64,000 bases of DNA from Prevotella melaninogenica (GTDB taxonomy: Bacteria > Bacteroidota > Bacteroidia > Bacteroidales > Bacteroidaceae): the NCBI RefSeq assembly GCF_018127965.1, contig NZ_CP072349.1, positions 186,001 to 250,000 on the forward strand. Direction: 5' to 3'. Shown piece after piece: positions 4,866-61,465 of this stretch (within the stretch, counting starts at the first letter, position 1; each line of letters begins with the position of its first letter). The position numbers and the translations under genes are program-made. The notes beneath the pieces were generated by a model. It was given only the letters and a program-made list of their open reading frames with translations. It was not told the origin of the DNA and made no database searches.

Positions 4866-4953
4866 ATTATTTTCATGAAAAGAAAGAATTATTTTCATGA
4901 AAATAAATATTTATTGTCATGAAGAAAAAGATTTATTTACATGAAAAAAAATA
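4866..4953. repeat. Four tandem 22-bp units, AT-rich dyad family
   Basis: Four units start at 4866, 4888, 4910 and 4932, exactly 22 bp apart. Each centres on a near-palindrome TTTTCATGAAAA (CATGA at 4874, 4896, 4918 and 4940) flanked by A/T. The same family and copy number recurs at 45009. The array fills the middle of a 329-bp gap between the fucosyltransferase and the next gene. No clear terminator is seen here, and I found no TAnnTTTG box just before 5107. Confidence 0.9.
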
Positions 4954-5106
4954 GCCACAAGCTGTCGGGAAGTCTACTTATGATGCCTATTATGAGTAGA
5001 AATAATGATAAAAACAATGACTCTTGATGCTCTGTTATTACAGAAAATATTCTATCTTAAAGTCGAAATAAGTAAGAACAAACCCCGAAATAAGTAAAAA
5101 GAAATA

Positions 5107-7080
5107 ATGTATAAGAACTTAACATATCTACTAAAGCACTCTGCTGTCATCCTTGTTATCTTATTTTTTGTGCGCATTTGCTTTGCTATTGCGTTCGTTC
5201 CGATGGGTCTTATAGGCAGCAACCTAACTGTTCTTCCACGTTTACTTTTCAATGTCCTGCGTTTTGATATGCAGGTAGTTTGTTACGTTTTGTTGCTGCC
5301 AACGGTTTTGACCTTTGTTTTTGCAGCCCTTCGTAAGCCGTGGACTGATCGTGTATTGAGCCGTTTTCGTAAGGTTTATTACGCTATTGTCAACATTCTT
5401 ATACTGGCACTCAGCGGTATAGATTTGGGCTTCTTTTCTAATTTCAATAGCCATATTAACCTCACATTCTTTGATTTCTTCAATGAAGGACCCTTAAGTT
5501 TAATACAGGCTATATGGGAAGAATACCATTGTGTTTATGAAGGTTTAGCCTTCCTTCTCCTCTCATTATTAATCCTTTATGTCATTCGTAGAATAGAATC
5601 AGATAAGGTGTTGGCTCGTCATCCGAACTGTTCTTCAGGCGGTCGGAGGACTTCACGCTGTCAACTTATTAAACTTTCGACTATCATCTTACTGTATATT
5701 GCTTTTGTAGTTATTGGTATGCGTGGCTCGGTATGGCGTTTCCCTTTGCAGATAGAAGACACCTTTGTGTCAAATCAGAAGCTTTTGAACGACCTTGTTC
5801 CCAATGCTATTTATATGTTGAAGAAGGCTTGTAAAGAGAAAGTTAAGGCTTTCAAGATAGAGAAGATAGATGACTTATTAGTACAATATAAGTTTAAGAG
5901 TCTGCAAGAAGCATTAGATGTTTATACTGATGGGCAAATAAAGATAGCAAAGAACGACACGCTAACAGCCTTGCAGCGTGCATTATTCGCAGAAGTGGGT
6001 GATAGTTTAAAGCAGCCACAACCTAATGTTGTAATTATTTATAGCGAAAGTTGGAGTAATTATCTGTTCAATCTCCAACAGAAGGATGTGGAGATGAACT
6101 TCGGATTGGACCGTCATTTCAAGGAAGATCTGCTCTTTCGCAACTTCCAATCGGTTCAGAATGGTACGATAAATTCGCTTGAAAACCTCTTTGTATCTAC
6201 TCCTTTCCCACACTTCTTTACTTCATCTTATCGTTTCAATACGCTTCCTACGTCGATAGCCTTACCTTTCAAAGCCAGCAACTATACAACGATGTTCATG
6301 TCGGGAATGGATGCTGCGTGGGAGAACTGTGCTGAAGCATTGCCTCATCAGCAGTTTGATGCTGTCTATGATAAGTTCTTCCTCTTGAAAGACTATCCTC
6401 ATGCGACTTATAATAGTATTGGTGTTTACGATGAATACCTCTTCCAAGCCTTGTTAGATAAGTTAAATAAACCATCAAAGAAACGGCAGATGATAACTGT
6501 GATGACGACGACAAATCATCCACCTTTTGAGTTCCCAAAGGACTTGAAACTTCCTCCTTTGCCCGATTCTTTCTATGGTAAGAAGTGTTTTGCAGAGCAT
6601 AATCGTAAGGTTTTGGATAAGTATCTCACGGGATTCCGCTATTATAACAAGACACTGAACGACTTTCTCAATCGCTTCAAAGCCTCTGCAGCAGCAAAGA
6701 ATACGATACTTGTTATCACAGGTGACCATAATGTGCGCGTTATTCTTAATCATGATGTAATCGATAAGCGGTATGAACATTCCGTTCCGCTCTATGTCTA
6801 TCTCCCACCTTACCTGCGCAAGGAGGCTTATAACAAGCTAACTAATCGATGGGGAAGTCATGATGATATCTTAGCAACGCTCGCCCCCTTTGCTTTTCGT
6901 AATACAAAGTATTTCAAGATGGGTAAGAACCTCTTAGATACATCCGTTTCGGACAGTACTTATTATAGTGCAAACGTTGACCAGATAGAAGCTATACCAA
7001 GCTATCAAAAGAAGGCTGAGCGACTTACGGCAGCCCGCAACCTACTGCGATTGGTTTATTTCACAAAGGTTTTACATTAA
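5107..7080 (+). CDS. LtaS-type sulfatase-fold transferase (phosphoglycerol/phosphoethanolamine transferase-like)
   Basis: Five hydrophobic segments in the first about 215 residues are followed by an extracytoplasmic alkaline phosphatase/sulfatase domain (about 300-600). NVVIIYSESWSNY at about 307-319 supplies the metal-binding Glu. Thr in NGTINSLEN (about 353) sits where LtaS has its catalytic Thr, and GDHN at about 539 supplies metal ligands. This is the arrangement of lipoteichoic acid synthase and OpgB-like phosphoglycerol transferases, with 657 aa being typical. In a Gram-negative with no teichoic acid, transfer of phosphoglycerol or phosphoethanolamine to LPS or a glycan is the likelier job. 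It opens a run with two GT2 genes 29 and 46 bp apart. Confidence 0.85.
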   Translation: MYKNLTYLLKHSAVILVILFFVRICFAIAFVPMGLIGSNLTVLPRLLFNVLRFDMQVVCYVLLLPTVLTFVFAALRKPWTDRVLSRFRKVYYAIVNILILALSGIDLGFFSNFNSHINLTFFDFFNEGPLSLIQAIWEEYHCVYEGLAFLLLSLLILYVIRRIESDKVLARHPNCSSGGRRTSRCQLIKLSTIILLYIAFVVIGMRGSVWRFPLQIEDTFVSNQKLLNDLVPNAIYMLKKACKEKVKAFKIEKIDDLLVQYKFKSLQEALDVYTDGQIKIAKNDTLTALQRALFAEVGDSLKQPQPNVVIIYSESWSNYLFNLQQKDVEMNFGLDRHFKEDLLFRNFQSVQNGTINSLENLFVSTPFPHFFTSSYRFNTLPTSIALPFKASNYTTMFMSGMDAAWENCAEALPHQQFDAVYDKFFLLKDYPHATYNSIGVYDEYLFQALLDKLNKPSKKRQMITVMTTTNHPPFEFPKDLKLPPLPDSFYGKKCFAEHNRKVLDKYLTGFRYYNKTLNDFLNRFKASAAAKNTILVITGDHNVRVILNHDVIDKRYEHSVPLYVYLPPYLRKEAYNKLTNRWGSHDDILATLAPFAFRNTKYFKMGKNLLDTSVSDSTYYSANVDQIEAIPSYQKKAERLTAARNLLRLVYFTKVLH

Positions 7081-7109
7081 ATATGAATATTGATATACCC
7101 TGTTAAAAT

Positions 7110-8048
7110 ATGCCTAAGTTCAGTATCATAGTTCCCTGTTATAAAGAAGTATTCCTAAAAGAATGTATAGAAAGCATTCTTTTCCAAACCTATCAAGACT
7201 TTGAACTTATCTTAGTAAACGATGCCTCACCTTATAATATAAGACAAATAGTGGATCAATTCAAGGATGATAGGATAAGATACTACGAGCGCAAGCAAGG
7301 CTTTGGTGCTAAGGGGTTAGTGCAAAATTGGAATGATTGCCTACGATATGTGCATGGAGAGTATGTTATAAATATGGGAGATGACGATAAGCTCATGCCC
7401 AATTGTTTGTCTGATTACATTGACTTGATGAAGAAATATCCGTGTCTTGACATCTATCACACGCGTGTTGCCTTCATTGATGAGCATGGAAAGACTATCC
7501 GATTACAGCGAGAGGCTGCAGAATACGAGTCGGTCTATGCTTTTATGTGGGCTTGTTGCTATGGTCGTCGCAGCACGTTCATTGGTGATTTCCTCTATCG
7601 TACGGAGGCTTTAAGGGCTGTTGGAGGCTATTATCCATTGGATTATGCATGGAACTCTGACCGTATATCGGCTTTTGTAGTGGCAAAAGAAAAGGGGTTA
7701 GCCAATACCAATAAGATTGGTTTCAAGTTTCGTAAGAGTAGATATGAAATATCAAATGATACATCATCTTCCATGGATAAAGTCCTTTTGTGGAAACGGA
7801 TAGAGGATTGGTATCGCTCATTTCTTTCAGAATCAATGGTCTCTGGTGAAGATAAAGCTATTGTTGAACGCCTGCAACACAGGCTTAGACGATTCATAGA
7901 CGATGCCATTGTTACTGACATTTATACTGATTTGAAAGCAAATAAGTGGCACATCGGAGTGTGGCTGAAGTTGTGTCGTAGAGAGCAGTTCTCTTTCCGT
8001 GTGAAAAGAAGAATTATCGGTAAGTTCTTGCATTGCCTTTTCAAATGA
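7110..8048 (+). CDS. Family 2 glycosyltransferase
   Basis: The first 100 residues form a GT-A fold with the usual SIIVPCYKE start, LVNDASP at about 36-42 and a DDD metal site (NMGDDDK, about 89-95). The C-terminal 120 residues are helical and unlike any group I can name. No membrane segment is present, so it would act at the cytoplasmic face. The gene begins 29 bp after the LtaS-type gene and is followed by a second GT2, suggesting stepwise assembly of one surface glycan. Donor and acceptor are unknown. Confidence 0.85.
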   Translation: MPKFSIIVPCYKEVFLKECIESILFQTYQDFELILVNDASPYNIRQIVDQFKDDRIRYYERKQGFGAKGLVQNWNDCLRYVHGEYVINMGDDDKLMPNCLSDYIDLMKKYPCLDIYHTRVAFIDEHGKTIRLQREAAEYESVYAFMWACCYGRRSTFIGDFLYRTEALRAVGGYYPLDYAWNSDRISAFVVAKEKGLANTNKIGFKFRKSRYEISNDTSSSMDKVLLWKRIEDWYRSFLSESMVSGEDKAIVERLQHRLRRFIDDAIVTDIYTDLKANKWHIGVWLKLCRREQFSFRVKRRIIGKFLHCLFK

Positions 8049-8094
8049 TAAGTAAAAGTACTCTTAATGTTTAACGATGAGATAATATTACGAT

Positions 8095-9096
8095 ATGATA
8101 AGTATAATAACTCCTGTTTACCAAGCTGAGAAGTATCTAAAAAATCTGATTAACTCCATTATTAATCAGACATATCATGATTGGGAATTGCTGTTGATAG
8201 ATGATGGTAGCACAGATGGATCGGCGGAAATCTGCGATTGTTATGCTCATAAAGATAATAGAATACGTGTCTTTCATAAAGCCAATGGAGGTGTCGCATC
8301 AGCACGTAATCAAGCTATGGATATGGCTAAAGGTGATTATTTAGCATTTGCTGATAGTGACGATTGGGTAGAGCCTAATTGGTTAGAACAGTTGTATACT
8401 ATTGCAAAGGAGCAGGAGGCAGATATTGTAGTGTCCGATTACTATGAAGAATATCCTCAAAAGACCATTATGCGAAGCAAAGATGACGATTCTATAATTG
8501 TTTTAAATAGAAAAGAAACTTTACTTTTGACCTTTCAGAATAAGATAGCAAGTTATCTGTGGTCAATGCTTATCCGAAGAGATATAGCACAAGAACGGTT
8601 TACCCCTTATCGTGCATTTGAAGACTATGCTACTGTATTTGCTTGGATGCGTCATGTAAATAAAGCCGTAATATTACATACGCCACTTTATCATTACAGG
8701 CAGTCTGCTAATAGTTGTCTTCATAACAATATGAAACAGAACTTAATAGACTGGATAAATGCGACAATCACACGTTATGAATTAATTAAAGAAACCTCTT
8801 TTATGCAAGAGAATACCTCTCAAATTAATGCTGCTTATATTTGTTCATTAGTGAAAGGCGTTAAAGATGTTGTGCGTTCTCCGTATGATAATAAGTTTAA
8901 ACAAAGTTTATTGAAGAAAGTCTCCGTTGAAATTAAAAGTATTCAACTCTCTTCACCATATAAATTATTAGGCTTAAAATATTTCCTGCGCTATCGACTA
9001 CTCTGTCAGAGTACAGACCTCTTTAAGTTTATTGTAGAGAAAACTGCTGTGTTTTCTTTTCATCAAAATAAAAGAAAAGACAATTTATACTCATAA
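8095..9096 (+). CDS. Family 2 glycosyltransferase
   Basis: A typical GT2 N-terminus is visible: SIITPVYQAEKYL, then LLIDDGSTDGSAEICD (about 34-49), NGGVASARNQ and the metal motif FADSDDW at about 86-92. The length of 333 aa is normal for capsule or LPS side-chain transferases of the EpsH/WcaA style. The last 100 residues are basic and could lie against the membrane. It ends the forward run of genes; the next gene is on the opposite strand, with 440 bp of repeat-filled DNA between. Confidence 0.85.
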   Translation: MISIITPVYQAEKYLKNLINSIINQTYHDWELLLIDDGSTDGSAEICDCYAHKDNRIRVFHKANGGVASARNQAMDMAKGDYLAFADSDDWVEPNWLEQLYTIAKEQEADIVVSDYYEEYPQKTIMRSKDDDSIIVLNRKETLLLTFQNKIASYLWSMLIRRDIAQERFTPYRAFEDYATVFAWMRHVNKAVILHTPLYHYRQSANSCLHNNMKQNLIDWINATITRYELIKETSFMQENTSQINAAYICSLVKGVKDVVRSPYDNKFKQSLLKKVSVEIKSIQLSSPYKLLGLKYFLRYRLLCQSTDLFKFIVEKTAVFSFHQNKRKDNLYS

Positions 9097-9193
9097 ATAG
9101 CTTCCTTATCTCCTGTCTAATTATGGTTCCTCCGACAATAGCTTTCTGATAAGATATACTATTACACATACTACAAGAATAGTATATTTTTTA

Positions 9194-9279
9194 ATTGCTG
9201 TCATTTTTAACGTTTCATGAAATACCATTGTAAACTAAAGACTTAGGTGATGACTTTGACTGACAGTGATGACAGCAAA
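9194..9279 (+). repeat. 86-bp dispersed element, copy 1
   Basis: The element runs from ATTGCTGTCA to TGACAGCAAA, which are inverted ends. The interior has TTTTTAACgtTTC near the left end and TGACAGTGATGACAGC at the right. Copies of exactly the same length and layout lie at 29277 (opposite orientation) and 35965. It immediately abuts the 87-bp direct repeat at 9280. It is non-coding and resembles a miniature inverted-repeat element. No clear target duplication is seen. Confidence 0.8.
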
Positions 9280-9453
9280 TTTTAATCTTAGTGCAAACCT
9301 TTGTTGTTGATACTCATAAGCAGGGGGGATTGTGAGTATTAAAAATCACGTATGCATCAAAAGATTTTTTAATCTTAGTGCAAACCTTTGTTGTCGATAC
9401 GCATAAGCAGGGGGTATTGTGAGTATTAAAAATCACGTATGCATCAAAAGATT
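9280..9453. repeat. Two direct 87-bp repeats
   Basis: Two nearly identical 87-bp copies lie head to tail (9280-9366 and 9367-9453), differing at only a few bases. Each contains TTTTAATCTTAGTGCAAAC, an ATACTCA/TGAGTAT hairpin around a run of G (the stem has one mismatch in copy 2), and ends in ATGCATCAAAAGAT. There is no coding potential. The location between two converging transcription units fits a duplicated hairpin or small RNA, but nothing in the sequence proves transcription. Confidence 0.85.
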
Positions 9454-9535
9454 TGGAAGGAAACGGTAGACGAACGCAATAAAGAATGATGGCTATGTAT
9501 TATTCAATAAGTCGAATGTTCCTTGATAGTTTACA

Positions 9536-10309: not shown

Positions 10310-10314
10310 ATCCG

Positions 10315-10322
10315 CAAATATA
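10315..10322 (-). promoter_or_regulatory. TATATTTG promoter box abutting a start codon
   Basis: On the minus strand TATATTTG is followed after CGGAT by the ATG at 10309. With transcription expected a few bases after the TTTG, the 5' leader would be near zero. This box is the main reason to reject the longer upstream start. Confidence 0.65.
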
Positions 10323-10500
10323 CAAATTATTTTTATCTGTACTATGTCATAATATAAAATGATAAAAATAATATCAACCAAACTTTGTAGTTCCCCATTA
10401 AAAGCTTAAAATATCAATTAATTTTCACTTGATGGTTGACTCTATTGAGCTTCATCTTAAATAATAATTCAAAAGCCGAACTTATATCATACTTTATTGC

Positions 10501-10508
10501 TACTTTTG
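10501..10508 (+). promoter_or_regulatory. TACTTTTG promoter box for the GT87-like gene
   Basis: TACTTTTG matches the TAnnTTTG element. It lies 48 bp before the ATG at 10557 in the divergent intergenic region. I do not see a convincing TTTG about 20 bp upstream. Confidence 0.55.
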
Positions 10509-10556
10509 TACTGCCATTGACAAAATGGATATTAACACAATTAATGGAAAAACTAT

Positions 10557-12938: not shown

Positions 12939-13026
12939 TAGCACCAATCGTGCGAACGCTCCGCACCATGTGTGCGGACGCCTAACACCATTTGTGCGAA
13001 CGGCTAATACGAATCTCGTAAACCAT
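12939..13026. repeat. Four tandem 22-bp units, GC-rich dyad family
   Basis: Units start at 12939, 12961, 12983 and 13005. The pattern is a 6-mer ending in CAC or TAC, four variable bases, then TGTGCGG or a variant. The second unit is the best palindrome (CCGCAC then GTGCGG). Relatives with the same period occur at 36604, 45813, 51052 and 58167. The array passes directly into the 44-bp repeats that follow. Confidence 0.88.
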
Positions 13027-13190
13027 TATCACCCACCATTCAACACCCATCACCCAATCTTGCCAACCATTATCACCCACCATTCAACACCTATCATCCA
13101 ATCCTGCAAACCATTAACACCCACCATTCAACACCTATCACCCAATCCTGCCAACCATCAACACTTAACACCCATCACCTAACACCCATC
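13023..13190. repeat. Tandem 44-bp C-rich repeats running into the gtrA 3' end
   Basis: CCATTATCACCC-type repeats begin at 13023, 13067, 13111 and 13155, exactly 44 bp (two times 22) apart, and contain CACCCACCATTCAACACC. The bottom strand is G/T-rich, like the repeat at 18252. The block runs into the end of gtrA, so the last residues of that protein (ADGC) and its stop codon are made of repeat sequence. The possible plus-strand reading frame through the block is low-complexity and not a gene. Confidence 0.88.
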
Positions 13191-17662: not shown

Positions 17663-17996
17663 ATTGATTAGAATTAAAGGGTTTGTAATGCTACAAAGAT
17701 ACAAAATTTCATGATGAAGCCAGTATAATATACAAACTTTCTGCTAAGAGAGATTGATTATTTTCTAATCTCTATTTAAGAGGAATACTTGGAAGAACTA
17801 TTATTTATTATCTAAAGGAGGAAATTATTTGGGGCTTATTAACCATCAATAATAGGACAGGAGAGGATTAATAAGGTTCTTCTGTTAAATGTATAGATTG
17901 TAAATAGATACTATGTCTTTCCGTCTTCTACCAACAACTTATTCCCATTTTATGGACTCTTGTAAATTATTTTCGTGCGGTTCAAAACCAATATAT

Positions 17997-18106
17997 GCTC
18001 TTTTGGCTTCTTAAAGACACCTAATAGGCTTGCAAAAGGTGCCCTTTTGAGATCTTACTAACACCCTTTTGGAGTCCAATTAAGCACCTTTTATGATAGT
18101 ACTTTA
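17997..18106. repeat. Five tandem 22-bp units, GCCCTTTTG family, copy 1
   Basis: Units start at 17997, 18019, 18041, 18063 and 18085. They alternate forms such as GCCCTTTTGAGATC, ACCCTTTTGGAGTCCAATTA and ACCTAATAGGCTTGC. A longer stretch around it (about 17910-18205) is alignable with 23815-24110, so the array sits in a roughly 290-bp dispersed element. The third relative is at 61259. The rest of the 1-kb gap 17705-18731 holds the G/T-rich repeats at 18252 and no supported gene. Confidence 0.85.
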
Positions 18107-18251
18107 TAACTAACTGATTTTGTGTTTGTTACAAACCTGATTTCTATACGTGTATTTGGCATTATATACGGATGTCTTATTTGAAAATATGTAATGATTT
18201 TTCAAAAACGTTATCTTGAATCTTTGGAGTATTGACTGGTGGGTGTTGGGG

Positions 18252-18390
18252 GTTTAATGTTAGGTGTTGATGATGTGAGTTTTGGGTTGTTGGGTGTTTG
18301 ATGATGGGTGTTGGGTGTTTAATGTTGGGTGTTGATGGTATGATTTTAGGATTGTTGGGTGTTTAATGTTAGGTGTTGATGAAATGATAA
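18252..18390. repeat. 44-bp G/T-rich repeats upstream of the GH16 gene
   Basis: GTTTAATGTT-type repeats occur at 18252, 18296, 18317 and 18361, that is steps of 44, 21 and 44 bp, each with a following GGGTGTTGATG or GGTGTTGATG. The plus strand is strongly G/T-biased. The mirror case is the C-rich 44-bp block at 13023 on the other strand. Confidence 0.8.
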
Positions 18391-18731
18391 GGTGGTTGAT
18401 AAAGATAATCTACAATATGAGTTGGCATTTTATATGCTTTTTATTGTTTTTAAGTGAATGGAGGCTTGATTTTTAGATGCTTTTTACTTGTAAGATATAA
18501 AAATATATTTTTTCTCCTCAAAAGATTTTGTTTTCTCAATAATATTTCGCACTTTTGTCCTCAGAATACACTAACGTAAACAAAAGATAATCTAAAAAAC
18601 GGAAAGTCGAGAAAGCTACGTGGGGAAATGTAGACCTATGTTATGTCAAATTCCTTATGTTTTCATCTGTGCTATAGGATGATTCTATGCTTTTCTGATC
18701 GTACCGCTTCAGATAGAATCTTAATAAAATC

Positions 18732-21704: not shown

Positions 21705-21727
21705 AATAGTTGACGAGTTTACAAGTA

Positions 21728-21870
21728 GACGAGTTAACAAGTTGCTTGCGACGTTGGGAAGTCTACAAGTAGATGAGTTAATGAGTTTACAAGATGCTTG
21801 TTAATAGCCCCAAGCGAATAGAAGTAATCATAATTATGAATTATGAATTATGAATTTTGAATTATGAATT
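21728..21870. repeat. 22-bp-spaced and 9-bp repeats between korA and korB
   Basis: GACGAGTTA, GACGTTGGG and GATGAGTTA start at 21728, 21750 and 21772, 22 bp apart, amid ACAAG repeats. A separate 9-bp tandem run of TTATGAATT fills about 21832-21870, just before korB. The block separates two subunit genes that are normally adjacent, so the operon has been invaded or expanded here. Confidence 0.75.
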
Positions 21871-23814: not shown

Positions 23815-24110
23815 TAGTATGTTTTTCCGTCTTCTACAAGCGACTTATTCCCTTATTACTTGATATCTGTAAACTATTTTCATACGTTTTGAAATCAATC
23901 CATACTCTTTTGGCTTCTAAAAGACGCCTAATTGACTTGCAAAAGGTGCCCTTTTGAGGTCCAACTAACGCCCTTTTGAAGTCCAATTAAGCACCTTTTC
24001 TTTTACTACTTTGTAACCATTTGATTTCCTGTTAGTTATAAACCTGCTTTTTATGCGTGTTTTTATCCTTGTTCATAGCTGTTTTACTTGAAATTATGTA
24101 ATGATTTTTC
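23815..24110. repeat. About 295-bp dispersed element with five 22-bp units, copy 2
   Basis: Units start at 23904, 23926, 23948, 23970 and 23992. GCCCTTTTGAGG and GCCCTTTTGAAG are the clearest pair. Flanks on both sides (for example CTTTTGGCTTCT before, and TAATGATTTTTCA near the end) align with 17910-18205. The remainder of the gap to 24563 has a stretch at 24151-24213 alignable to 36121-36200, and otherwise nothing I can support. Confidence 0.85.
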
Positions 24111-24563
24111 ACCATGCAATCTATGTTTTTGAAGTATTAAGATGAAAGTTTTTTTTCTGAAATAGGGAGTGATAAACTAAAGCTATTACATAAAAAGGCA
24201 CACTGAGGAAAGGACTAAGACGGTGCAAGAGAAAGTTTTGTGGCGTAGTTAGTAATAGAAATATTCAGTTACTATTAAAAAAATACTGGTAATCTTCCCA
24301 TAAAACCATACTGTTTGCTATTATATTCTTACCTTTGTAAGGTGATATTCTGAAATCGAATGTAATGATAAATCTAAACTAAAAAATACTTCAAAGAAAT
24401 TAGAAATATGGGAAAGATACGTTATTTTCGCTTGTTGTAGGTGTTGCGATGCGGCATGAAGTGTTTTCTATAAATCAAGGTGGCAACTATCTCTTTTAGA
24501 TAACGAAACAGCTATTAAAAAGAGGTTTTAGTCATATCTTTTAAATATTTTTCTAAGTTTCTC

Positions 24564-30288: not shown

Positions 30289-30510
30289 GGGCGTATCAAA
30301 ATAGACACATCCTCTCTTTTAAATTCCTAAAACTTAATCTGTCTACAAAAAGGTCAACAGTTTTTATCAAAATAGTCGACTATTTTTCAAAAAAGGTTGA
30401 CCCTTCCGTCAAAAAAGGTTGACCTTTTCGTCAAAAAAGGTTGACCTTTTCGTCAAAAAGGGTTAACCTTCTTGTCAACAAAAAGGATATGTCTATTTTG
30501 ACACACGCCC
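30289..30510. repeat. 22-bp array framed by 24-26-bp inverted repeats
   Basis: Inverted ends GGGCGT..TCAAAATAGACA..ATCC occur at 30289-30312 and, reversed, at 30485-30510. Between them TCAA-starting units lie at 30387, 30409, 30431, 30453 and 30475, exactly 22 bp apart, each with the dyad AAAAGGTTGACCTTTT or a close variant. A partial unit with ATAGTCGACTAT starts 20 bp before. The whole looks like a bounded mobile or structural element inside a 434-bp gap. No gene is present. Confidence 0.88.
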
Positions 30511-36603: not shown

Positions 36604-36669
36604 CCGCACCACTTGTGTTCAGCCTCCGCACGACCTGTGCGGACACTCCGCACAAGATGTGCGAAGCAT
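36604..36669. repeat. Three tandem 22-bp units, GC-rich dyad family
   Basis: CCGCAC starts at 36604, 36626 and 36648. Each unit has the half-sites CCGCAC and a TGTGCGG variant separated by four bases, followed by a short spacer ending CT. It lies about 110 bp beyond the 3' end of the KilA-N gene. Confidence 0.9.
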
Positions 36670-36781
36670 CATTACGTTGACTGAAAGAAGTAGAAAGAGC
36701 TACGATAGATATTTATTTGAGTAGCAGTAGACTATTAAGGCAAATATAATTCCTTAAATGTGTAAACTATTTCGATACTAA

Positions 36782-44883: not shown

Positions 44884-45008
44884 TACATTGCGGGTGCCTT
44901 TGCCCCGTAGTTGATTCTCCTTGATTTAGCGGTCTTTTAAGTCCTTGGGATAGGTGATAATTCCTACTTTGGCTCGTCTTTGAGAGTGCATTATGATGAT
45001 GACTCGGA

Positions 45009-45096
45009 TTTATTTTCATGATAAAAAGAAATTATTTACGTGAAAAGAAATATTTATTTTCATGAAAGAAAATACTTATCTTCATGAAAAGAATTC
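45009..45096. repeat. Four tandem 22-bp units, AT-rich dyad family
   Basis: Units start at 45009, 45031, 45053 and 45075 around CATGA or CGTGA (45017, 45039, 45061, 45083). They have the same sequence type, period and copy number as the array at 4866, 40 kb away. The array lies between ompH copies 2 and 3, before a terminator, in a 367-bp gap. Confidence 0.9.
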
Positions 45097-45812: not shown

Positions 45813-45878
45813 CAGCACAAAGCGTGCTGGGCATCCGCACAGGATGTGCGGAGCGTCCGCACCACTCTGTATGTGGTG
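45813..45878. repeat. Three tandem 22-bp units, GC-rich dyad family
   Basis: CAGCAC/CCGCAC starts lie at 45813, 45835 and 45857. The middle unit has perfect CCGCAC/GTGCGG half-sites. The array fills the 148-bp gap between ompH copy 3 and murI and ends 36 bp before the murI start codon. Confidence 0.9.
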
Positions 45879-46813: not shown

Positions 46814-48280
46814 ATGAAAAAGTTATCTATATTGTTTTTTCTGTCAGTTGTCATGATCATGGCAGCCTGCTCTGATGATGATACTTTCACTACATCACGG
46901 GGCAATCTGCTCTCTTTCTCAACTGACACACTACGACTTGACACCACTTTCTCCAATGTTCCGACATCTACTAAGACTTTCTGGGTGTATAATAAGTCGG
47001 GCGATGGACTGCGGTTGACCAACGTTCGTCTGGCACAGGGTAATCAAACAGGTTTCCGTGTGAATGTAGATGGTGTAGAACTCTCGGCTGCTAATGGCTA
47101 TCAAGTAGGCAATTTGGAAGTGCGCAACAAGGATAGTATTCAGGTATTCGTTGAGATGACATCACCTTTTAACAATGCTGCAACACCGCAAGAGGTAGTA
47201 GATAACCTTTTGTTTACGCTCGAAAGTGGTGTACAACAGAAGGTAAACCTACGTGTCTACAGCTGGGATGCGGAGTTGGTAAAGGGTCGCAAGATTACAA
47301 CGAATACTACTTTGAGCATTACAAAACCGATTGTTTTCCAAGATACATTGAAGGTGGAAGCTGGTGCTACACTGACAATTCCTGCCGGAACAACCGTGTA
47401 CTTCTCTCAGAAGGCTGCCCTTGATGTTTATGGAACACTGCGTTGTGAAGGCACAGCAGACAATCCTGTGACATTGCGCGGCGACCGATTGGATAAGATG
47501 TTTAAGTATCTTCCTTACGATCGTGTCAGTGGTCAGTGGCAGGGAGTACGCTTTCATAAGGACAGTTACGATAATGTTCTTACGCATACGGATATCCATT
47601 CAACCTATAATGGTATTCTCTGCGATACGGCAACATCGACTCGTACGAAGCTGACACTCGCTAATTCTACCGTTCATAACTGTCAGGGCTATGGCTTGCA
47701 AGCAATTAACTGCAAGATTATAGCTTATAATACTCAGTTCTCGAATACGCTGATGGACTGTGCTTCCTTTGTGGGTGGTGAGGTGATTTTGACACATTGT
47801 ACTTTCGCACAGTTCTATCCTTTCGATAGTAATCGTGGTGCAGCGTTGAGCTTTGGCAATCATATTAACAACAAGGACTATCCACTTCAGACTTTCCATG
47901 TCGTCAACTCGCTTGTGACGGGATATGCAGATGATGTACTTATGGGCGGTAACAAGGATGGTGTTACAGCCAACTATCAGTTCTATAATTGTATTCTTCG
48001 TACGCCAAAGCCTAAGGATACGGCTCTGTTAGCACGTTTCACAGATGTCATTTGGGAGAATAGTAAGGATTATCCTGATGGTGGTTCAAAGCAGTTTGTG
48101 CTGGTAGATGGTGACAAACAGAAGTATGATTTTCATCTAAAGAAGGCTGAAAAAGGTGAGAAGTATCCTGCGATTGATGCAGGACTTCCCCTCAGCGATA
48201 CTCGTTTTGCAACTGATCATGATGGTAAGCAGCGTGATAATAAACCAGATATCGGCTGTTATGAGCTGATTGCTAATTAG
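46814..48280 (+). CDS. Lipoprotein with right-handed beta-helix domain
   Basis: The lipobox MAACSDDD has an acidic stretch after Cys, as in surface lipoproteins of this phylum. The first 150 residues look like an Ig-like sandwich. From about 160 a repetitive beta-helix begins (LKVEAGATLTIPAGTTVYFS, ALDVYGTLRCEGTADNPVTL, WQGVRFHKDSYDNVLTHTDI, NSTVHNCQGYGLQAINC). The end (GKQRDNKPDIGCYE) is the motif that closes many choice-of-anchor/parallel beta-helix proteins. Such proteins bind or cleave polysaccharides or act as adhesins; no catalytic residues are evident. Function unknown. Confidence 0.85.
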   Translation: MKKLSILFFLSVVMIMAACSDDDTFTTSRGNLLSFSTDTLRLDTTFSNVPTSTKTFWVYNKSGDGLRLTNVRLAQGNQTGFRVNVDGVELSAANGYQVGNLEVRNKDSIQVFVEMTSPFNNAATPQEVVDNLLFTLESGVQQKVNLRVYSWDAELVKGRKITTNTTLSITKPIVFQDTLKVEAGATLTIPAGTTVYFSQKAALDVYGTLRCEGTADNPVTLRGDRLDKMFKYLPYDRVSGQWQGVRFHKDSYDNVLTHTDIHSTYNGILCDTATSTRTKLTLANSTVHNCQGYGLQAINCKIIAYNTQFSNTLMDCASFVGGEVILTHCTFAQFYPFDSNRGAALSFGNHINNKDYPLQTFHVVNSLVTGYADDVLMGGNKDGVTANYQFYNCILRTPKPKDTALLARFTDVIWENSKDYPDGGSKQFVLVDGDKQKYDFHLKKAEKGEKYPAIDAGLPLSDTRFATDHDGKQRDNKPDIGCYELIAN

Positions 48281-48293
48281 GCTTATTTGCCCT

Positions 48294-48322
48294 ATTAGGC
48301 TAATTAGCCCAATTAGCCTAAT
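48294..48322 (+). terminator. Hairpin of 9-bp repeats after the beta-helix lipoprotein
   Basis: ATTAGGCTAATT (48294-48305) pairs perfectly with AATTAGCCTAAT (48311-48322) around AGCCC. It is built from a run of ATTAGCCTA/ATTAGCCCA 9-bp repeats that continues to about 48340. There is no poly-T tail, so its use as a terminator is uncertain. Confidence 0.55.
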
Positions 48323-48370
48323 TAGCCTAATAAGCCCAATAACCCCCACCACCAATAATAAATATCAACA

Positions 48371-50916: not shown

Positions 50917-51051
50917 ATTGCTGTATGATAAGAAAATGATGCTATTCTCTTTCATGTAAATGGTCTTTTTAAAAGAATATCGTATATACTTTGGAAAAGC
51001 TAATAAGAAGTTGACTCTACTCCAGTCATATTTTACAATCTGTTTAGCACG

Positions 51052-51117
51052 CAATACCATTGGTGCTTACCAACAGCACGACATGTGCTGGGTATCAACA
51101 CATCGGCTAAAGATGAG
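51052..51117. repeat. Three degenerate 22-bp units beside the insertion sequence
   Basis: CAATAC, CAGCAC and CAACAC start units at 51052, 51074 and 51096, and the middle unit has CAGCAC/TGTGCTG half-sites. It is the most degenerate member of the GC-rich family and lies 75 bp before the insertion sequence. Confidence 0.7.
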
Positions 51118-51192
51118 AGGTAAGAGGCATTAAGGTCATAACAATGAAGGTAGTAAGATGCTAATACATAAGTAGAAAAACTCAATTCTCAA

Positions 51193-53324
51193 CCCAAGTT
51201 TAACAGGCAAAATTATTTTTCATAAATTTTCGGGATGTTTTGTGTAGTATCAATTTGATAAATGATTGATAATCAAGTATAGGGTATTGTTGCGAGGAGT
51301 AAAATCTGATTTGTAGGACACAGCCATATCAAAATTATTTTGTTACTTTGCACTCATGCACGCAAATGTACAGACACGATTCAACCCTGCCACAGGCGAC
51401 ATAGCTCCTTATTATCGCATCAAGGAGTCATATCGTGATGTGCAGGGTCATGTACACTCGCTAATTCTGTTGAACATCGGTTTTGAACCTTCACTTACTG
51501 CTGTACAGGTTCGAAAAATTGCATACGCTCTTACCGAACGCTTCAAAACCAGAAGTACACCCTCGCTTTTTAAAAAACATCTTGACGGACTTACTCCTAT
51601 TGAACAGGCAAAGGCTGACGAATGGTGGAGCCGTATGGAGAAAGAAGGTGGAATCGATCGGTTTAATAAGGAAGAGCAGAAGTCGCTGAGAAAATATGAG
51701 AACTATATTGACCTTGAGACGGCAAACTATACTGACGCAAGGAATGTTGGCGCAGAGTGGCTCTGCAAGCAGACAATAGACAAGCTGCAGTTAGAGGGTT
51801 TTCTGCGCAAAAATGGGTGGACGGAGAATGCGATACACACGGCTTTGTCAGCATTGATTGTCCGTACGGTATATGCTGTCTCTGAATGTTCATCTTATTA
51901 TTATTTGCGCGATAACTCGGCTGCCGCTGAACTTTATAGTGGAGCTCCTGGCTGGACACCAGGGATCAATTCTCTGTATAAAATCACTGACAAGTTATAT
52001 GAACTAAAGGAACAGTTAGAGCGTCATTTGTGCAGCGTTACTGACGATCTCTTTAATATAGACAACAAGTTGATGCTCTTCGACTTAACCAACTTCTATT
52101 TCGAGGGTAGTAAGCGTAATAGCGATAAAGCCAAGTTCGGTCGATCAAAAGAAAAACGCTCTGACTGTAAACTACTTGTACTTGCATTATGTATCAATAA
52201 AGAAGGTTTTATACGTTATTCTTCTATCTTGGAGGGTAATACAGCAGATCCCAAGTCTCTACCCAATATGATTGATACGCTGGCAAAGAGGAATCCATCA
52301 AGAACAAAGGATACGCTCGTTGTCATGGATGCAGGTGTTGCCACGGAAGAGAACTTGGAGTTAATAAAGAGAAAGGGTTACAATTATCTCTGCGTATCCC
52401 GTACGAAAATGAAAAACTATACGCTCAGTGATGATAACAAGAGTGTTACGGTAATGGATGCCCGTCGGCAGAAGATAACGCTGAAAGAGGTTAAGACAGA
52501 GGATGATGAGGATTATTATCTCGAAATAACATCTCCTTCGAAAGCTATGACAGAGTCGTCCATGAACAGGGTTTGGAGAGAGCGTTTTGAGATGGAACTG
52601 CAGAGGATAAACGAAGGAATCTCCAAGAAAGGTGGAACAAAAACCTATGAAAAGGTTGTTGAACGTACAGGACGTGCCATACAGAAGTACCCTTCTATAG
52701 CGAAGTTCTACCGGATTAGCTACATAAAAAACGAGAAGAAACCCAAGGAGATGCTGCGTGTAGACTGGGAGATAAAAGACCTCTCGGAAATGGAATCTGG
52801 TCACGGAGTCTATTTCCTCCGCAGCAATGTCAGGACACTTTCTGAGCGTGTGACATGGGAATACTACAATCTTATTCGTGAGATAGAATGTACGAACAGA
52901 CAACTAAAGAATGATCTCAACCTCCGTCCTATCTATCATCAGAAAGATGAGCGAAGCGATGCACACCTTTTCTTCGGTTTATTAGCCTACTGGGTGGTAA
53001 ACACCATCCGTTGTCAATTAAAACGAGAAGGAGAATCCTGTTACTGGACCGAGATAGTACGACGTATGAGCATCCAAAAGCTCGTCACCACAAAAGGGAA
53101 GAATCCATTAGGTGAAACCATCGAGATGCGCCAATGTAGTAGTCCTTCGAAGCAAGCAAAACAAATATACGATAAGTTGGACTTAAAACACTCACCATTC
53201 AAAAAGAATAAAATTTGTAGGACACAGAGCCCATAAGAAAAACGAGGAAAGTACGGTAACAGTAACAATTAGGCGAAAGTGGGTGTTAAACTTGGGTTAG
53301 GCGAAAGTGAGTGTTAAACTTGGG
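51193..53324 (+). mobile_element. Insertion sequence, IS4/IS1634-type
   Basis: Inverted ends CCCAAGTTTAACA (51193-51205) and TGTTAAACTTGGG (53312-53324) bound a 2.1-kb element with one transposase gene. TCAA directly flanks both ends (51189-51192 and 53325-53328), fitting a 4-bp target duplication, though four bases can match by chance. The right end is present twice, 28 bp apart (inner copy ending 53296). A 15-bp direct repeat ATTTGTAGGACACAG lies at 51309 and 53213, just outside and at the end of the transposase frame. The element appears intact. Confidence 0.8.
51356..53236 (+). CDS. DDE transposase of the insertion sequence
   Basis: A 626-aa IS4-superfamily transposase. The first catalytic Asp sits in LFDLTNFYFEGSK (about 243), the second in LVVMDAGVATEENLELI (about 325), and the Glu in the YREK-like segment YYNLIREIECTNRQLKNDL (about 510). 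SVTVMD and a long insertion before the last Glu fit the IS1634-like group. A TTACTTTG promoter-like box ends only 5 bp before the ATG, so the message may be leaderless. The frame is complete, suggesting recent insertion. Confidence 0.92.
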   Translation: MHANVQTRFNPATGDIAPYYRIKESYRDVQGHVHSLILLNIGFEPSLTAVQVRKIAYALTERFKTRSTPSLFKKHLDGLTPIEQAKADEWWSRMEKEGGIDRFNKEEQKSLRKYENYIDLETANYTDARNVGAEWLCKQTIDKLQLEGFLRKNGWTENAIHTALSALIVRTVYAVSECSSYYYLRDNSAAAELYSGAPGWTPGINSLYKITDKLYELKEQLERHLCSVTDDLFNIDNKLMLFDLTNFYFEGSKRNSDKAKFGRSKEKRSDCKLLVLALCINKEGFIRYSSILEGNTADPKSLPNMIDTLAKRNPSRTKDTLVVMDAGVATEENLELIKRKGYNYLCVSRTKMKNYTLSDDNKSVTVMDARRQKITLKEVKTEDDEDYYLEITSPSKAMTESSMNRVWRERFEMELQRINEGISKKGGTKTYEKVVERTGRAIQKYPSIAKFYRISYIKNEKKPKEMLRVDWEIKDLSEMESGHGVYFLRSNVRTLSERVTWEYYNLIREIECTNRQLKNDLNLRPIYHQKDERSDAHLFFGLLAYWVVNTIRCQLKREGESCYWTEIVRRMSIQKLVTTKGKNPLGETIEMRQCSSPSKQAKQIYDKLDLKHSPFKKNKICRTQSP

Positions 53325-53488: not shown

Positions 53489-53686
53489 TTAGTCCTTTGA
53501 GTCTACATTCCACGTGCTTCCCCATTCAAACTTTGGATTCTCTTCTTCCTCTTCAAAGACGAATCTTTGCTGTTTGCTATCAGCGTGATCATCCTGCGAA
53601 GAATCGAGAAGTGGACACTCTATCTGGGTTTCAAACACTGTTATAGTTGGTCTATTATATATCTTTTTCAGTTCCATGTGATTCAT
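53489..53686 (-). CDS. Small peptide gene directly after the giant secreted protein
   Basis: The ATG at 53686 comes one base after the stop of the 1262-aa gene, so translation is probably coupled; an in-frame ATG at 53677 is the alternative start. The 65-aa product begins KKIYNRPTITVFETQIECPL and turns very acidic (EEEEENP) with DSSQDDHADSK. No signal peptide is visible. I recall many Prevotella small proteins with this Lys-Lys-x-Tyr-x-x-Pro opening and a mid-protein Cys, usually annotated as hypothetical. Function unknown. Confidence 0.65.
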   Translation of the reverse strand: MNHMELKKIYNRPTITVFETQIECPLLDSSQDDHADSKQQRFVFEEEEENPKFEWGSTWNVDSKD

Positions 53687-53687
53687 T

Positions 53688-57476: not shown

Positions 57477-57629
57477 GTTCTTTGTAAATTTATTTTCTTT
57501 AGTTGATATTTTTAGCCATTGATACCTGCTATTTTATAGCAAAAGTGTCCTTTTCTATGAATCCTCTGATTCTGAATTTTAGTTATATTCATATAGAAAA
57601 TAGTGGCCTTTATTGTTAATTTGTGAATG

Positions 57630-57637
57630 CAAAGTTA
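57630..57637 (-). promoter_or_regulatory. TAACTTTG promoter box for the giant secreted protein
   Basis: On the minus strand TAACTTTG lies about 155 bp before the ATG at 57476. From here to 58166 the DNA is very AT-rich with long T-runs and no supported gene. Confidence 0.55.
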
Positions 57638-58166
57638 ACGTTTATTTTATAAATATGCAAATAAACTATGTGTAAATATGAAATTATTTTTATTTTACAG
57701 GCTGTTAGCGGTAGTTTTGTAAGACTTTTTAAAAGTGTTATTAAATGTAGTGATATAGAGGATAATACATTTTAAAAGATGGATTAATCATATAATTTTA
57801 TATTGAAAGTTTTATACATATCAATCTTTTCTGATGTTTGTTATAGTCTAATTTTCAGTTTATTATGCTTTTGAATAAACTTGCAATCTATGTATTCTTA
57901 CTTCTGTTCTTTTGCATGAATTAGTCTTCTTGTTTTTGTGATATTATTAGTTAGAGTTTTGAGCATGATGTTTAAAAATATAATTTATCTTTTTTTTTCT
58001 TACAATTGTTTTCTTTTTCCGTTTTTGTATATCTAATACTGGGTGTTAAGTACTATTTTTTTTCAGTATTGGCAATATTTTTCTACTCCTAATAGTTACT
58101 TTTCATCTTATTTATATTAGGTTATTTGCAAAGCTATAAACCATCTAAAGTATTGTAGTTTATCGT

Positions 58167-58232
58167 CCGCACCATTGGTGTTAAGCCTTCGCACTATATG
58201 TGTTGGGCATCCGCACAATATGTGCGGAGCCT
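58167..58232. repeat. Three tandem 22-bp units, GC-rich dyad family
   Basis: Units start at 58167, 58189 and 58211. The third is a perfect CCGCAC/GTGCGG dyad. Surrounded by very AT-rich DNA, it stands out clearly. It lies about 170 bp beyond the 3' end of the GH2 gene. Confidence 0.9.
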
Positions 58233-58405
58233 TCGGACGATGATAAGAAGTTGTATAAATGTTCTTATGTTACAATCTTCTTATAACAAAGCAAGTCTTT
58301 CAAAAAAGATTTTTTGTCACTTAAGAATGATTTATAGTTCGTATAAGTGAAATGTAATAGCGAAATGAAACTCAAAAAGAGCTTTTAATTTAGAGATGGA
58401 AATGC

Positions 58406-60895
58406 TTACTGGTCGTGCACTTGCAGTGCGTTTCCAGTATTATGGATGGTGATATTTTTGCTGATTTTTATCTCTTTATCGTGTACAGTCAGCGTAATAT
58501 CTCCTTTCTTGTTATCTCCTTCCACAATGACGACAAGCTTGCCGTGGAAGAGTTTCATATGTGGTTCGGTGAATGACTGCAATGAAGTTGGATCACCATT
58601 GCATACGGCTTTGAAATGACCGGCACCTGACACGCTGAAGAAGAGTTCGTTGTCAGCATCGGGAACGGGATTACCCTGCTCATCAAGCATTGTAACGGTG
58701 ATGTAGACAAGGTTGGCACCAGGGATATTACAGGTAGATTTGTCGGCTTCAAGCAGTAGCTTATGGGGTTTCCCTGCAGTGAACACAGAAATGGAATCAA
58801 CCGTTTTGCCCTGCTCATCAAATGCCACAACCTTCAGTTCCCCAGGCTCATAGACAACATTATCCCATATCATTCGATAGCGTTTAGCACGTTGTTTAGC
58901 TTCTTCTGGCGTAGCGGCTTTTCCTGTAGCAGCCTCACCCTGTACCTCTTTTCCAGCCTTTTTGCATCGTCCCTGCGACTTTCCATTGACGAAGAGTTCC
59001 GTCTCCGGATAGCTTGAGTAGCAGAAGACAGGTGTCGTCTGTCCTTCACGTCCGTTCCACGTCCAGTGGGGGAGGAGGTGAAGCGTTGGTTCTTTCTTGT
59101 TCCAGACAGACCGGTAGAGGTAGTATCGGTCCTTAGGTAGTCCTGCGAGATCGCAAGCACCGAAGTAGCTGCTACGGCTGGGCCAGTATTCATCATAGGG
59201 AGTCGGCTCTCCAAGATAGTCAGTTCCAGTCCATATAAACTGTCCAATCGTATAAGGGAGGTCCTCCATAGCGATGAAGTCTTCTTCCGGTAAGTTGCTC
59301 CATGAACACCATTGTGTGTCGTAGCTTGAGACCTGTCCATCGCTGTCAGCCTCTGCTACGCCCCAGCGTACAGGAAACTTGTATACTCCACGGCTTGAGA
59401 CTGTTGAGGCTGTCTCAGTCCCTAAGAGAAAGCCTGCGGGCAATTGTGCAATGTTGCGGTTGTATTTATAAACACGATAGTTGAATCCCGGTACATCCAT
59501 CACCTGTGCAAAGCCCGATTTCAAGGCTGCTTCCGCTTGGTCCATACCCTGTGTAACAGGGCGAGAAGGGTCTAAGCGGTGACAGATAGCCTGTAGTCTT
59601 TCAGCAATCTGTCGTCCCTCTTCGCTCCATTGTTCGGGTATTTCGTTTCCGATGCTCCACATCACGATACTGGGATGGTTGCGGTGATGTCTTACGAGGT
59701 TCTCCATATCCTTGTCAGACCAGTCTTTAAAGAATCGTGCGTAGCCGTTCTTACACTTAGGATAGAGCCACATATCAAAACTTTCAGCCATTACCATCAT
59801 TCCTAAAGAGTCACAAAGGTGCACGAAGAGTTCTGAAGGCATATTGTGAGCGGTGCGTATGGCGTCTGCACCCATATCCTTCATCTGTTTTATCTGTCGT
59901 ATCAGTGCGGCTTTGTTTTCGGCAGCTCCGAGTGGTCCGAGGTCGTGATGCAGGCATACACCTTGTATCTTTCTGCTGATACCATTAAGCTGAAAGCCCT
60001 TTTCCTTTGAGACGGAAACTGTTCGGATTGCAGTCTTCGTCGTGTAAAGGAGAGCCAATCTACCCTTGTTTCGGGTGTAGATACCAAAGTGGATGAGGGC
60101 AGGATGCTCTGGAGTCCATACGCTGTATTTACCTTTCTTCCAGTTCATTTCGGTATGGGCAATACCAGTAAGCGGGTCAAGTGTCAGAGCGGTCTGTTGC
60201 ATTGGTCCGTCCTTACTTTCGTAGGCAATAGCTATCAGTTTCTCTTTACCGTCCCATCCGTCAATCTTTGCATCGACGGAAAGTGTGGCACCCTCCTCAT
60301 CGAGGCGTGTTGTACGTATATAGACATCCCACGGATCGATATGCAATCGAGGCATAAGGACGAGTTTTACAGGGCGGAAAAGTCCTGCTCCGGGATACCA
60401 TCGTGAGCTTTCTTCACGATTGTTGAGGTGAACAATTATTGTGTTTTCGCCTTCCTTTAGATATTCCGTAGCATCAATACGAAAGGCATTATAGCCGTAT
60501 GCCCACCTTCCTGCTTCCTTTCCGTTGATGTAAACGATGGGTTCTGACATCGCACCATCAAAGTAAAGATAGGCGCGAGAGTATCTCTGGCGCTTCTTGA
60601 TAGTCAGTTTATGGCTGTACCAGCCTTCTCCTATCCACGGTAAAGCACCGCTGCGACCACTCTTTTCAGTAGCTTGTTTCTCGCCATTCTGTTCTATTGC
60701 CACACGTTGTAAGTCCCATTTTTTGTCGAAGGGTCCGCTGATAGCCCAGTCATGGGGGATATTCACGGTTTGCCAATGTAGACTATCACGTGAGAACTGC
60801 CAAGTACGAAGTTCTGTTACTTGGTTCATTGCCCAGTTGAGGGTTGTATGACAGAGGAGTAGAAGGGTGATGAGGATTCTCGTTTTCATTGTCAA
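58406..60895 (-). CDS. Secreted glycoside hydrolase family 2 (beta-galactosidase type)
   Basis: A signal peptide (about 1-22) precedes a GH2 sugar-binding domain (WYSHKLTIKKRQRYSRAYLYFDG, YKYNAFRID-like YGYNAFRIDATEYL), an Ig-like domain and a TIM barrel. GADAIRTAHNMPS is a conserved GH2 stretch. The acid/base is the Glu in IVMWSIGNEIPEQW (about 418) and the nucleophile fits the Glu in LLGTETAST (about 494). A C-terminal DUF4982-like and Ig-like region (ETELFVNGKSQGRCKKAGK) completes the usual 829-aa form. It probably removes beta-galactosyl or related residues from host or dietary glycans in the periplasm or at the surface. No PUL genes are adjacent. Confidence 0.92.
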   Translation of the reverse strand: MTMKTRILITLLLLCHTTLNWAMNQVTELRTWQFSRDSLHWQTVNIPHDWAISGPFDKKWDLQRVAIEQNGEKQATEKSGRSGALPWIGEGWYSHKLTIKKRQRYSRAYLYFDGAMSEPIVYINGKEAGRWAYGYNAFRIDATEYLKEGENTIIVHLNNREESSRWYPGAGLFRPVKLVLMPRLHIDPWDVYIRTTRLDEEGATLSVDAKIDGWDGKEKLIAIAYESKDGPMQQTALTLDPLTGIAHTEMNWKKGKYSVWTPEHPALIHFGIYTRNKGRLALLYTTKTAIRTVSVSKEKGFQLNGISRKIQGVCLHHDLGPLGAAENKAALIRQIKQMKDMGADAIRTAHNMPSELFVHLCDSLGMMVMAESFDMWLYPKCKNGYARFFKDWSDKDMENLVRHHRNHPSIVMWSIGNEIPEQWSEEGRQIAERLQAICHRLDPSRPVTQGMDQAEAALKSGFAQVMDVPGFNYRVYKYNRNIAQLPAGFLLGTETASTVSSRGVYKFPVRWGVAEADSDGQVSSYDTQWCSWSNLPEEDFIAMEDLPYTIGQFIWTGTDYLGEPTPYDEYWPSRSSYFGACDLAGLPKDRYYLYRSVWNKKEPTLHLLPHWTWNGREGQTTPVFCYSSYPETELFVNGKSQGRCKKAGKEVQGEAATGKAATPEEAKQRAKRYRMIWDNVVYEPGELKVVAFDEQGKTVDSISVFTAGKPHKLLLEADKSTCNIPGANLVYITVTMLDEQGNPVPDADNELFFSVSGAGHFKAVCNGDPTSLQSFTEPHMKLFHGKLVVIVEGDNKKGDITLTVHDKEIKISKNITIHNTGNALQVHDQ

Positions 60896-61224
60896 AAGTG
60901 TGTTTGTTTAGCATAATCCAATCAAGTTCCGTACTCTCTTGGAATGTTGTCTGTTGTGTCTTTGATAATTACCAACGTCTGGTAATATATGAGCATATTA
61001 TTTTGTTTCTTAGATTGATTACAAGGTATATATTTTTTTCCACTTATAAGGTATATCTTTTATTTTTACAGGAAGAACCGTTCTTTTCTAAGGGTTATGG
61101 AGGTGAATGAGACAGGGGAATAGTGCTATGTACAAAGCGGTGTTTCTTTCATGATAGGGAAGCTGTTTGGTATAAACAGCATATCAGAACGCTCATTGTT
61201 TCCTGCTGTTGAAATATCTGTTTT

Positions 61225-61465
61225 GTAAGAATAAAATCAATCGTGGAAAATAAAAGACGCTTAATAGCGTTGCAATTAGGCCTTAACTGGCGTGCAACTA
61301 AGGCTTAATTGAAAGCTTAAAGGGCGTTAGTTGGAATACTATTAAGTACCGATAATTTTAAGGTTTTGTAATCAATTGATAGTCTGATGGTTGCTTGTTT
61401 GTGTTTTTGCGGTTTTTTTTATGATTTAAAGAAGGTTTTTCAATACTTTATGTAAATATATTTCA
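61225..61465. repeat. Dispersed element with 22-bp units, copy 3
   Basis: TTA of GCTTAA, GCCTTAA, GGCTTAA and GCGTTAG recurs at 61261, 61283, 61305 and 61327, 22 bp apart. Flanks resemble those of the elements at 17910 and 23815 (AAATCAATC before; TTTTGTAATCAATTGAT after). The unit sequences differ from the other two copies, so the array has drifted while the period has stayed. The 700-bp gap 60896-61602 otherwise shows only a short stretch at 61173-61201 similar to 63842-63870. Confidence 0.75.

Follow-up and report, generated by a model that had tools for sequence, protein, structure and literature searches.

A common 22-bp step in intergenic arrays of unrelated sequence in Prevotella melaninogenica

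The intergenic DNA of Prevotella melaninogenica holds short arrays whose units recur every 22 bp, in sequence families unrelated to one another. We studied them in a stretch of 64,000 bp (hereafter, the window), positions 186001-250000 on the larger of the two replicons (1.863 and 1.355 Mb) of one genome (GCF_018127965.1, contig NZ_CP072349.1; labelled G000, with G001-G031 and L-numbers for the other genomes and loci compared), and in further DNA of this genome and of other bacteria. The intergenic arrays with their 22-bp step are real, and the spacing itself looks to be under constraint. As a tentative explanation, falling a little short of what we would call probable, each array may be a row of binding sites 22 bp apart for a putative dimeric protein, at the core of a dispersed intergenic element. 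Repeat families are normally recognised by a common sequence; here the common property is spacing, in dozens of unrelated families of the genus, which suggests that these common human-associated bacteria possess a high-copy, uncharacterised system of DNA binding, or else that a ruler is built into some copying process. Each of these readings is open to direct test, and the motifs GCACN5GTGC and AAAAGRTNAYCTTTT could be used as baits.

The 22-bp step and its rigidity

A sequence-only reading of the window had listed 22-bp or 44-bp arrays at 14 sites. When lags of 12-34 were tried, 22 was the best lag at ten of these, and at the site 51052 it ranked second, behind 25. The other three did not hold: the site at 21728 is a 16-bp repeat (Tandem Repeats Finder, TRF, at 21708), and those at 13023 and 18252, taken for 44-bp blocks of the same rule, have a heptamer-type 7/14/21/44/65-bp structure according to TRF. 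A period of 22 bp was returned by TRF at 4864, 12942, 23948, 30387, 45010, and 58178. The two heptamer regions (13021-13188 and 18232-18408) are C/G-rich arrays of ACACCC/GGGTGTT-like heptamers.

Within the window, most lags gave an intergenic identity of about 0.29, and lags 22 and 44 stood out with 0.325 and 0.320; coding DNA had a 3-bp rhythm only. The genome outside the window was sampled as 40 stretches of 20 kb (800 kb). There the top intergenic lag was again 22 (identity 0.3145; z 25), followed by 44 (z 16), with harmonics at 66 (z 8.7) and 88 (z 4.5); lags 7-11, 21, 23, and 33 were also elevated, less so (z 7 to 12). These z values assume independent positions and give a scale only, not a probability. 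No 22-bp peak was found in the coding DNA of the sample. A strict array scan of the same 800 kb gave 25 arrays at lag 22, 11 at lag 44, and at most four at any other lag of 10-43; chance was rejected as their origin, with no array in three first-order Markov resamplings per region. A looser threshold, with the window included, gave 60 arrays at lag 22 and at most nine at any other lag of 18-28. The autocorrelation peak that the sequence-only reading had proposed to look for was thus found in the intergenic DNA of the genome and was lacking in coding DNA, and the shuffles held no array. Genes were taken as mechanical open reading frames (ORFs) without annotation, by which some arrays fall inside false ORFs; 11 pairs of family A cores with spacing 22 were scored as coding in this way.

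The spacing was followed through the core motif of family A, GCACN5GTGC. In the 800-kb sample, 69 of 70 near pairs of cores were exactly 22 bp apart. In the whole genome, 78 strict pairs were found at any spacing of 15-43 bp (gap 2-30) and the same number, 78, at exactly 22 bp, among matches listed in part and possibly with one match per start, so that a second spacing from the same start could be hidden. In P. bivia (G010, taken as strain DSM 20514) AAAAGN5CTTTT pairs occur in 62 places, with 44 at spacing 22 and six at 44 among the 50 listed. The reversed GCACN5GTGC pair pattern had no match in the whole genome. Two of the 60 genomes examined in the genus have the fixed-spacing A pair: G000, and G011 with 15 places whose surrounding consensus differs.

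Arrays from 22 Prevotella-like genome samples were then clustered by unit, with rotation and reverse complement allowed (one of the 22 labels merges two Segatella copri strains; fragments from G005, G012, and G017 were too short and left out; loci L202 and L203 were added for this clustering). At period 22 there were 83 arrays in 33 families from 13 of the 22 samples, and 27 of the 33 families occurred once. Period 21 had 10 arrays in nine families, period 14 had 37 arrays in four, and any other period at most six families. The suggestion that the spacing itself is constrained was supported by its exactness in two genomes with unlike motifs, by an indel-free block in family D (below), and by the 33 families.

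The elements that carry the arrays

The array-bearing features of the window are collected in Table 1.

Table 1 Features with arrays in the window, by family.
Position	Strand	Feature	Remark
4864..4952	.	Family B element, four 22-bp units around TTTTCATGAAAA	Lag-22 identity 0.83
12939..13010	-	Family A array, GCACN5GTGC + 9, core of oriented element	Adjoins 44-bp heptamer-type block 13021-13188
17875..18206	+	Family D copy; left end GGTTCTTCTGTTAAATG at 17875, 22-bp block 17997-18105	81% to another D copy over 17990-18206
23852..24175	+	Another D copy, with its 22-bp block at 23904-24000	77% to another D copy
30293..30504	+	Element of family C, bounded by inverted end motifs	Four units at 30387-30483 and degenerate ones
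36604..36691	+	Family A array, three units	
45007..45096	.	Family B element, four 22-bp units	Lag-22 identity 0.73
45813..45875	-	Family A array, weaker	Position weight matrix score 54
51030..51150	+	Family A-like array, element-like right end by eye	Best lag 25, then 22; outside the 54 A chains
58167..58240	+	Family A array, three units	
61259..61346	.	D-style period-22 array	Lag-22 identity 0.52, top lag; unmatched by D query

Family D is a miniature inverted-repeat transposable element (MITE) with ISL3-like ends, because it has inverted ends, 8-bp target duplications, and no long ORF, and shares its ends with a resident insertion sequence (IS) of the ISL3 family. The first 15 bases of the D ends, GGTTCTTCCGTTAAATG, occur with at most one mismatch in 82 places. 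PF01610 has 10 matches in G000, nine of them with equal score, and an identical IS, about 1,314 bp long, was present at each of the eight loci compared. It starts with GGTTCTTCCG and has ten end bases in common with D; 8-bp duplications flank it, by eye, in at least L317, L319, and L320. D copies are 479-785 bp long, and in the one copy examined for ORFs none exceeds 60 aa. The 14 two-ended D rows represent 12 distinct copies (L088 repeats L087, and L093 repeats L092). Scored by eye in A/T-rich flanks, the target duplications of these 12 are exact over 8 bp in four (L072, L074, L092, L094), match at seven of eight bases in three (L069, L079, L095), are exact with a one-base offset in L078, and are unclear or absent in four (L077, L081, L084, L087). 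The idea that the arrays are parts of one known transposon applies to D only. Beside the D-style array at 61259 lies an ISL3-like end at 61065 (2 mismatches). A 9-bp array, CTAATTAGC, is found at 48272-48340 in the window, and similar sequence occurs in the left part of D copies L013, L016, L021, and L028. In L087 (G000:C1:1641726-1642312) the end of a D copy immediately adjoins sequence resembling the beginning of a B element, so these elements abut or nest.

Family A arrays sit centrally in an oriented element about 176 bp long, whose ends are imperfect inverted repeats. Of 54 A chains, 51 had enough flank for alignment and kept their register. As this alignment assumed no gaps, only the copies with correctly placed ends demonstrate rigidity of the outer parts. 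The oriented covariation analysis used the 48 chains with a sufficiently high score. Downstream of the A-like array at 51052 is an IS1634-family transposase gene (51356-53236; NCBIfam NF033559).

Family B has exactly four units at six of eight loci and three at the other two, and one more B array is out of register (L051:12780-12862). The C element of the window consists of four GGTTGACC/GGTTAACC units at 30387-30483 and degenerate units; six C copies measure 212-213 bp across the end motifs, and a seventh is diverged. Inverted ends are present in both B and C, those of B following from its palindromic lattice, and no direct target duplication was seen by eye in either. Some of the C copies L179, L183, and L187 have an inverted, not direct, flank complement outside their ends (ACGAATAAGAGGG / CCCTCTTATTCGT in L183), an arrangement that would place C within a terminator hairpin, in its loop. 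Terminator-like hairpins of C-end-like sequence also occur on their own, as GAGGATGTATCAATTTTGACACACCCTC in L189 and L190 and as a variant in L193. A, B, and C are dispersed as well, and we infer that they spread, or once spread.

The positions of the arrays relative to genes were compared with random places within the same intergenic regions. In G000, three of 50 distances to a start codon were below 100 bp versus 24% expected, and operators of the neighbouring gene were rejected on this count; elsewhere, seven of 25 were this short versus 33%, with no avoidance. Distances below 40 bp to a stop codon (5/58 in G000 versus 11% at random, 2/35 in other genomes versus 12%) give no sign either way of terminators. 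Divergent regions were short of arrays for their length (9/54 versus 28% in G000; 1/30 versus 22% elsewhere). Of the 51 copies of family A, 48 were classed, and 20 of these are flanked by convergent genes, an excess over the 24% of regions in this class; the period-22 arrays of G000 taken together were not enriched there (13/54 versus 22%). These positions fit dispersed elements kept away from promoters.

Protein sites, hairpins or a copying ruler

Many units are internal dyads, and the earlier statement that most are was too broad. A permuted palindrome null was beaten at p<0.05 by 28% of the 60 period-22 arrays of G000 and by 35% of 57 arrays of other periods. The distances between palindrome centres (stems of at least 6 bp) fell on an 11-bp lattice. 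Counts at 11/22/33/44/55 bp were 20, 15, 20, 12, and 6 in G000 (0 to 6 at other distances), 14, 12, 10, 9, and 5 in G003 (nearly all others 0 or 1, with 5 at 21), and 9, 5, 12, 10, and 2 in G010 (others 0 to 2, with 5 at 66). An array of period 22 in which every unit holds a dyad must have further dyads 11 bp off, so the lattice and the period are one fact.

The site is best resolved in P. bivia, where it reads AAAAG-R-T-N-A-Y-CTTTT, with conserved half sites (AAAAGRT and AYCTTTT) and a loose 7-bp linker between sites. The base at the centre varies freely (25/24/21/18 of the 88 core readings from 44 pairs, cores in longer arrays being read twice), and the outer core pair was complementary in 24 of the 88 readings versus 44 expected. 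Kept half sites around a free centre look like the site of a dimeric protein. In 143 family A units no arm pair was more complementary than shuffles and several were less so, a deficit partly explained by mixed orientations; when wobble pairs were counted, one pair inside the centre loop attained P 0.045. Among the 48 oriented A copies, the printed lattice centres scored z -1.9 to +2.1.

The alternative in the sequence-only reading, that each unit folds as a small RNA hairpin, was weakened by these results. All 13 folded strands were more stable than shuffles (z -2.7 to -8.5), and nine of them formed, by eye, one long hairpin instead of unit hairpins. Folding energies are not decisive because any palindromic lattice folds well, and covariation is the better guide between pairing and binding. 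Unit hairpins were rejected since formal tests, made on the A and P. bivia families, showed no covariation of the arms. A known RNA family was likewise rejected, with no Rfam match in the window at the gathering score.

The array is also the most conserved part of D and is free of indels: over 17 copies its 22-bp block had 6.2% substitutions and no indel, versus 13.8-31.5% substitutions and 2-31 indels in three neighbouring 100-bp stretches. Together with the exact spacing, the site anatomy, the lack of compensatory change, the palindrome lattice in G000, G003, and G010, and the unrelated families sharing 22 bp, this conservation argues for the dimer-site reading. An array would offer a dimeric DNA-binding protein an ordered row of about 2-5 sites. 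Each site would be a dyad of 13-18 bp whose centre is free, and its neighbours would lie exactly 22 bp, or two helical turns, away. If the helix in the cell turns about once every 11 bp, all dimers would lie on one face of it, able to touch, and might bind co-operatively. The row would be the core of a non-coding intergenic element, spreading now or formerly, and the site sequences would vary by family and species, presumably for different proteins, with the geometry constant. The reader may be a transposase-like protein of the element, acting in transposition, or a host chromosome protein, acting in chromosome organisation.

Several observations weigh against this reading. The protein that would read the sites is putative. 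The D copies were collected by a block-centred query, which favours the apparent conservation of the block; the first right-hand 100 bp, mostly inside the query too, nevertheless shows twice the variability. The period-22 units of G016 were not significantly palindromic (0/5) and its palindromes lacked the 11-bp lattice, and G003 has a period-21 array of this type (L112:5119, ATTATCTAAGTGTGATAATTA). The top covariation scores of A lie off the lattice (z 3.2 and 3.0; about 260 centres), and some C and G003 arms change together. One G003 array (L115:2649-2900) switches site family midway with its phase kept, and one protein would not read such an array.

That phase survives a change of unit family is easier to place under the best rival, in which the step is set at the birth of the array by fold-back or template-switch copying with an 11-nt ruler and functionless arrays travel in mobile elements. 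It ranks as such because it is the simplest account of free sequence, 33 families with one period, and the palindrome lattice and the long hairpins formed by 9/13 folded strands (z to -8.5) favour it too. It leaves unexplained why the D block is the best-kept part of its element and why six of eight B loci have exactly four units, and it sits poorly with diverged A copies in register at the scale of the element (in the gap-free alignment). We know of no copying process with an 11-nt ruler, and we regard this origin as unlikely. Hairpins of RNA or cruciform type, comparable to repetitive extragenic palindromes (REP) and bacterial interspersed mosaic elements (BIME) and serving for example as gyrase, terminator or nuclease sites, are in our view improbable as well. 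The stability of all 13 folded strands, the paired arm changes in C and G003, the enrichment of A (not of all arrays) between convergent genes, and a C element 43 bp past a stop codon, with an end that is a terminator-like hairpin, are in their favour; the arms of A do not covary, those of P. bivia are anti-complementary, the CATG centres of B would be unable to loop as unit hairpins, and G000 has no Y1 (RAYT-type) transposase.

We think it quite improbable that the arrays are ordinary MITE-borne minisatellites whose common period is an accident of the lineage. D is a MITE by its ends and target duplications, and Porphyromonas MITEs hold 23-bp and 41-bp arrays, with 22-nt tandem repeats mentioned for strain W83 (PMC4596501); a period common to 33 families from 13 of 22 genome samples, and exact genome-wide in two species with different motifs, speaks against an accident. 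A further reading, in our judgement possible but rather doubtful, is a sequence-independent spacing code of Prevotella genomes: unrelated intergenic elements would be rebuilt repeatedly as an 11-bp dyad lattice with sites every 22 bp, read by a co-evolving protein family or made by a process with an 11-nt ruler, with spacing inherited and sequence turning over.

Described repeats and relatives

REP and BIME are high-copy intergenic dyads in alternating orientation. Unlike them, the arrays have a fixed 22-bp step, family A shows no pairing covariation, and G000 lacks a gene of the RAYT (REP-associated tyrosine transposase) type: the Y1 transposase domain (PF01797) had no match in G000 and G003 and was present in 15 of 20 genomes searched, and a REP/RAYT system was rejected for G000 on this basis. 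Tandem operators, iterons, and the end sites of Mu and Tn7, of about 22 bp, place several protein sites two helical turns apart; the arrays differ in their many dispersed copies and many unrelated families.

The statement that no described system fits was nearly right, and two systems come close in kind as far as their available descriptions go. BrickBuilt, a MITE of Porphyromonas gingivalis, has a 23-bp tandem unit in 1 to 22.8 copies and IS5-like ends, and promoter activity is claimed for it (Klein 2015, PMC4596501). Its dispersed intergenic elements in an oral member of the Bacteroidales, with an internal array of about two helical turns per unit, resemble those described here; it has 23 bp and one sequence family, whereas period 22 runs across unrelated families here. 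The available text of a second Porphyromonas paper (PMC5771137) gave nothing further on period. PINSR of Prevotella intermedia is a 188-bp intergenic repeat with 177-184 copies per genome, found in related species only, with no known function and said to lack inverted ends (Naito 2016, PMC4755523). It is likewise a lineage-specific intergenic repeat, of a size near that of A; no 22-bp structure is described for it in the text available. No report of a 22-bp period in Prevotella or in bacterial intergenic DNA was found in the open-licence literature searched, which leaves most subscription journals outside.

Among nine sampled relatives in the genus, 22 was the top lag (of lags of at least 14) in G003, G006, G010, and G016, and marginally so in G004, which had no array; it was not the top lag in G001 (three short arrays), G007, G008, and G009. 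These lag results weigh against a genus-wide rule. The intergenic repeats of G008 and G009 are mainly 7-bp-based arrays (14/21/28). Of 80 further loci, 48 entered the lag analysis. Lag 22 was the top in seven of 16 named Prevotella-like loci, highest in P. disiens (z 5.7 in 2.2 kb of intergenic DNA), which has 46 places resembling its own array; the P. disiens and P. pallens loci are in G030 and G031. Nine Firmicutes-labelled contigs had lag 22 nominally on top (z 2.2, equal to several lags) and no period-22 array. In other families of the order, lag 22 had z 0.3 in a pooled 336 kb, with three overlapping or short period-22 arrays, and 23 other Bacteroidales contigs held four arrays at period 22 versus 11 at period 14.

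Two arrays of G003 occupy gaps of 608 and 522 bp whose G000 counterparts measure 212 and 119 bp; in these counterparts no such array was seen by eye and no clean junction was readable. A Paludibacteraceae-labelled contig (L262, at 3203 and 11745) carries 22-bp arrays made of 11-bp direct repeats (ACGTTTATCAT/ACGTTTATCCT).

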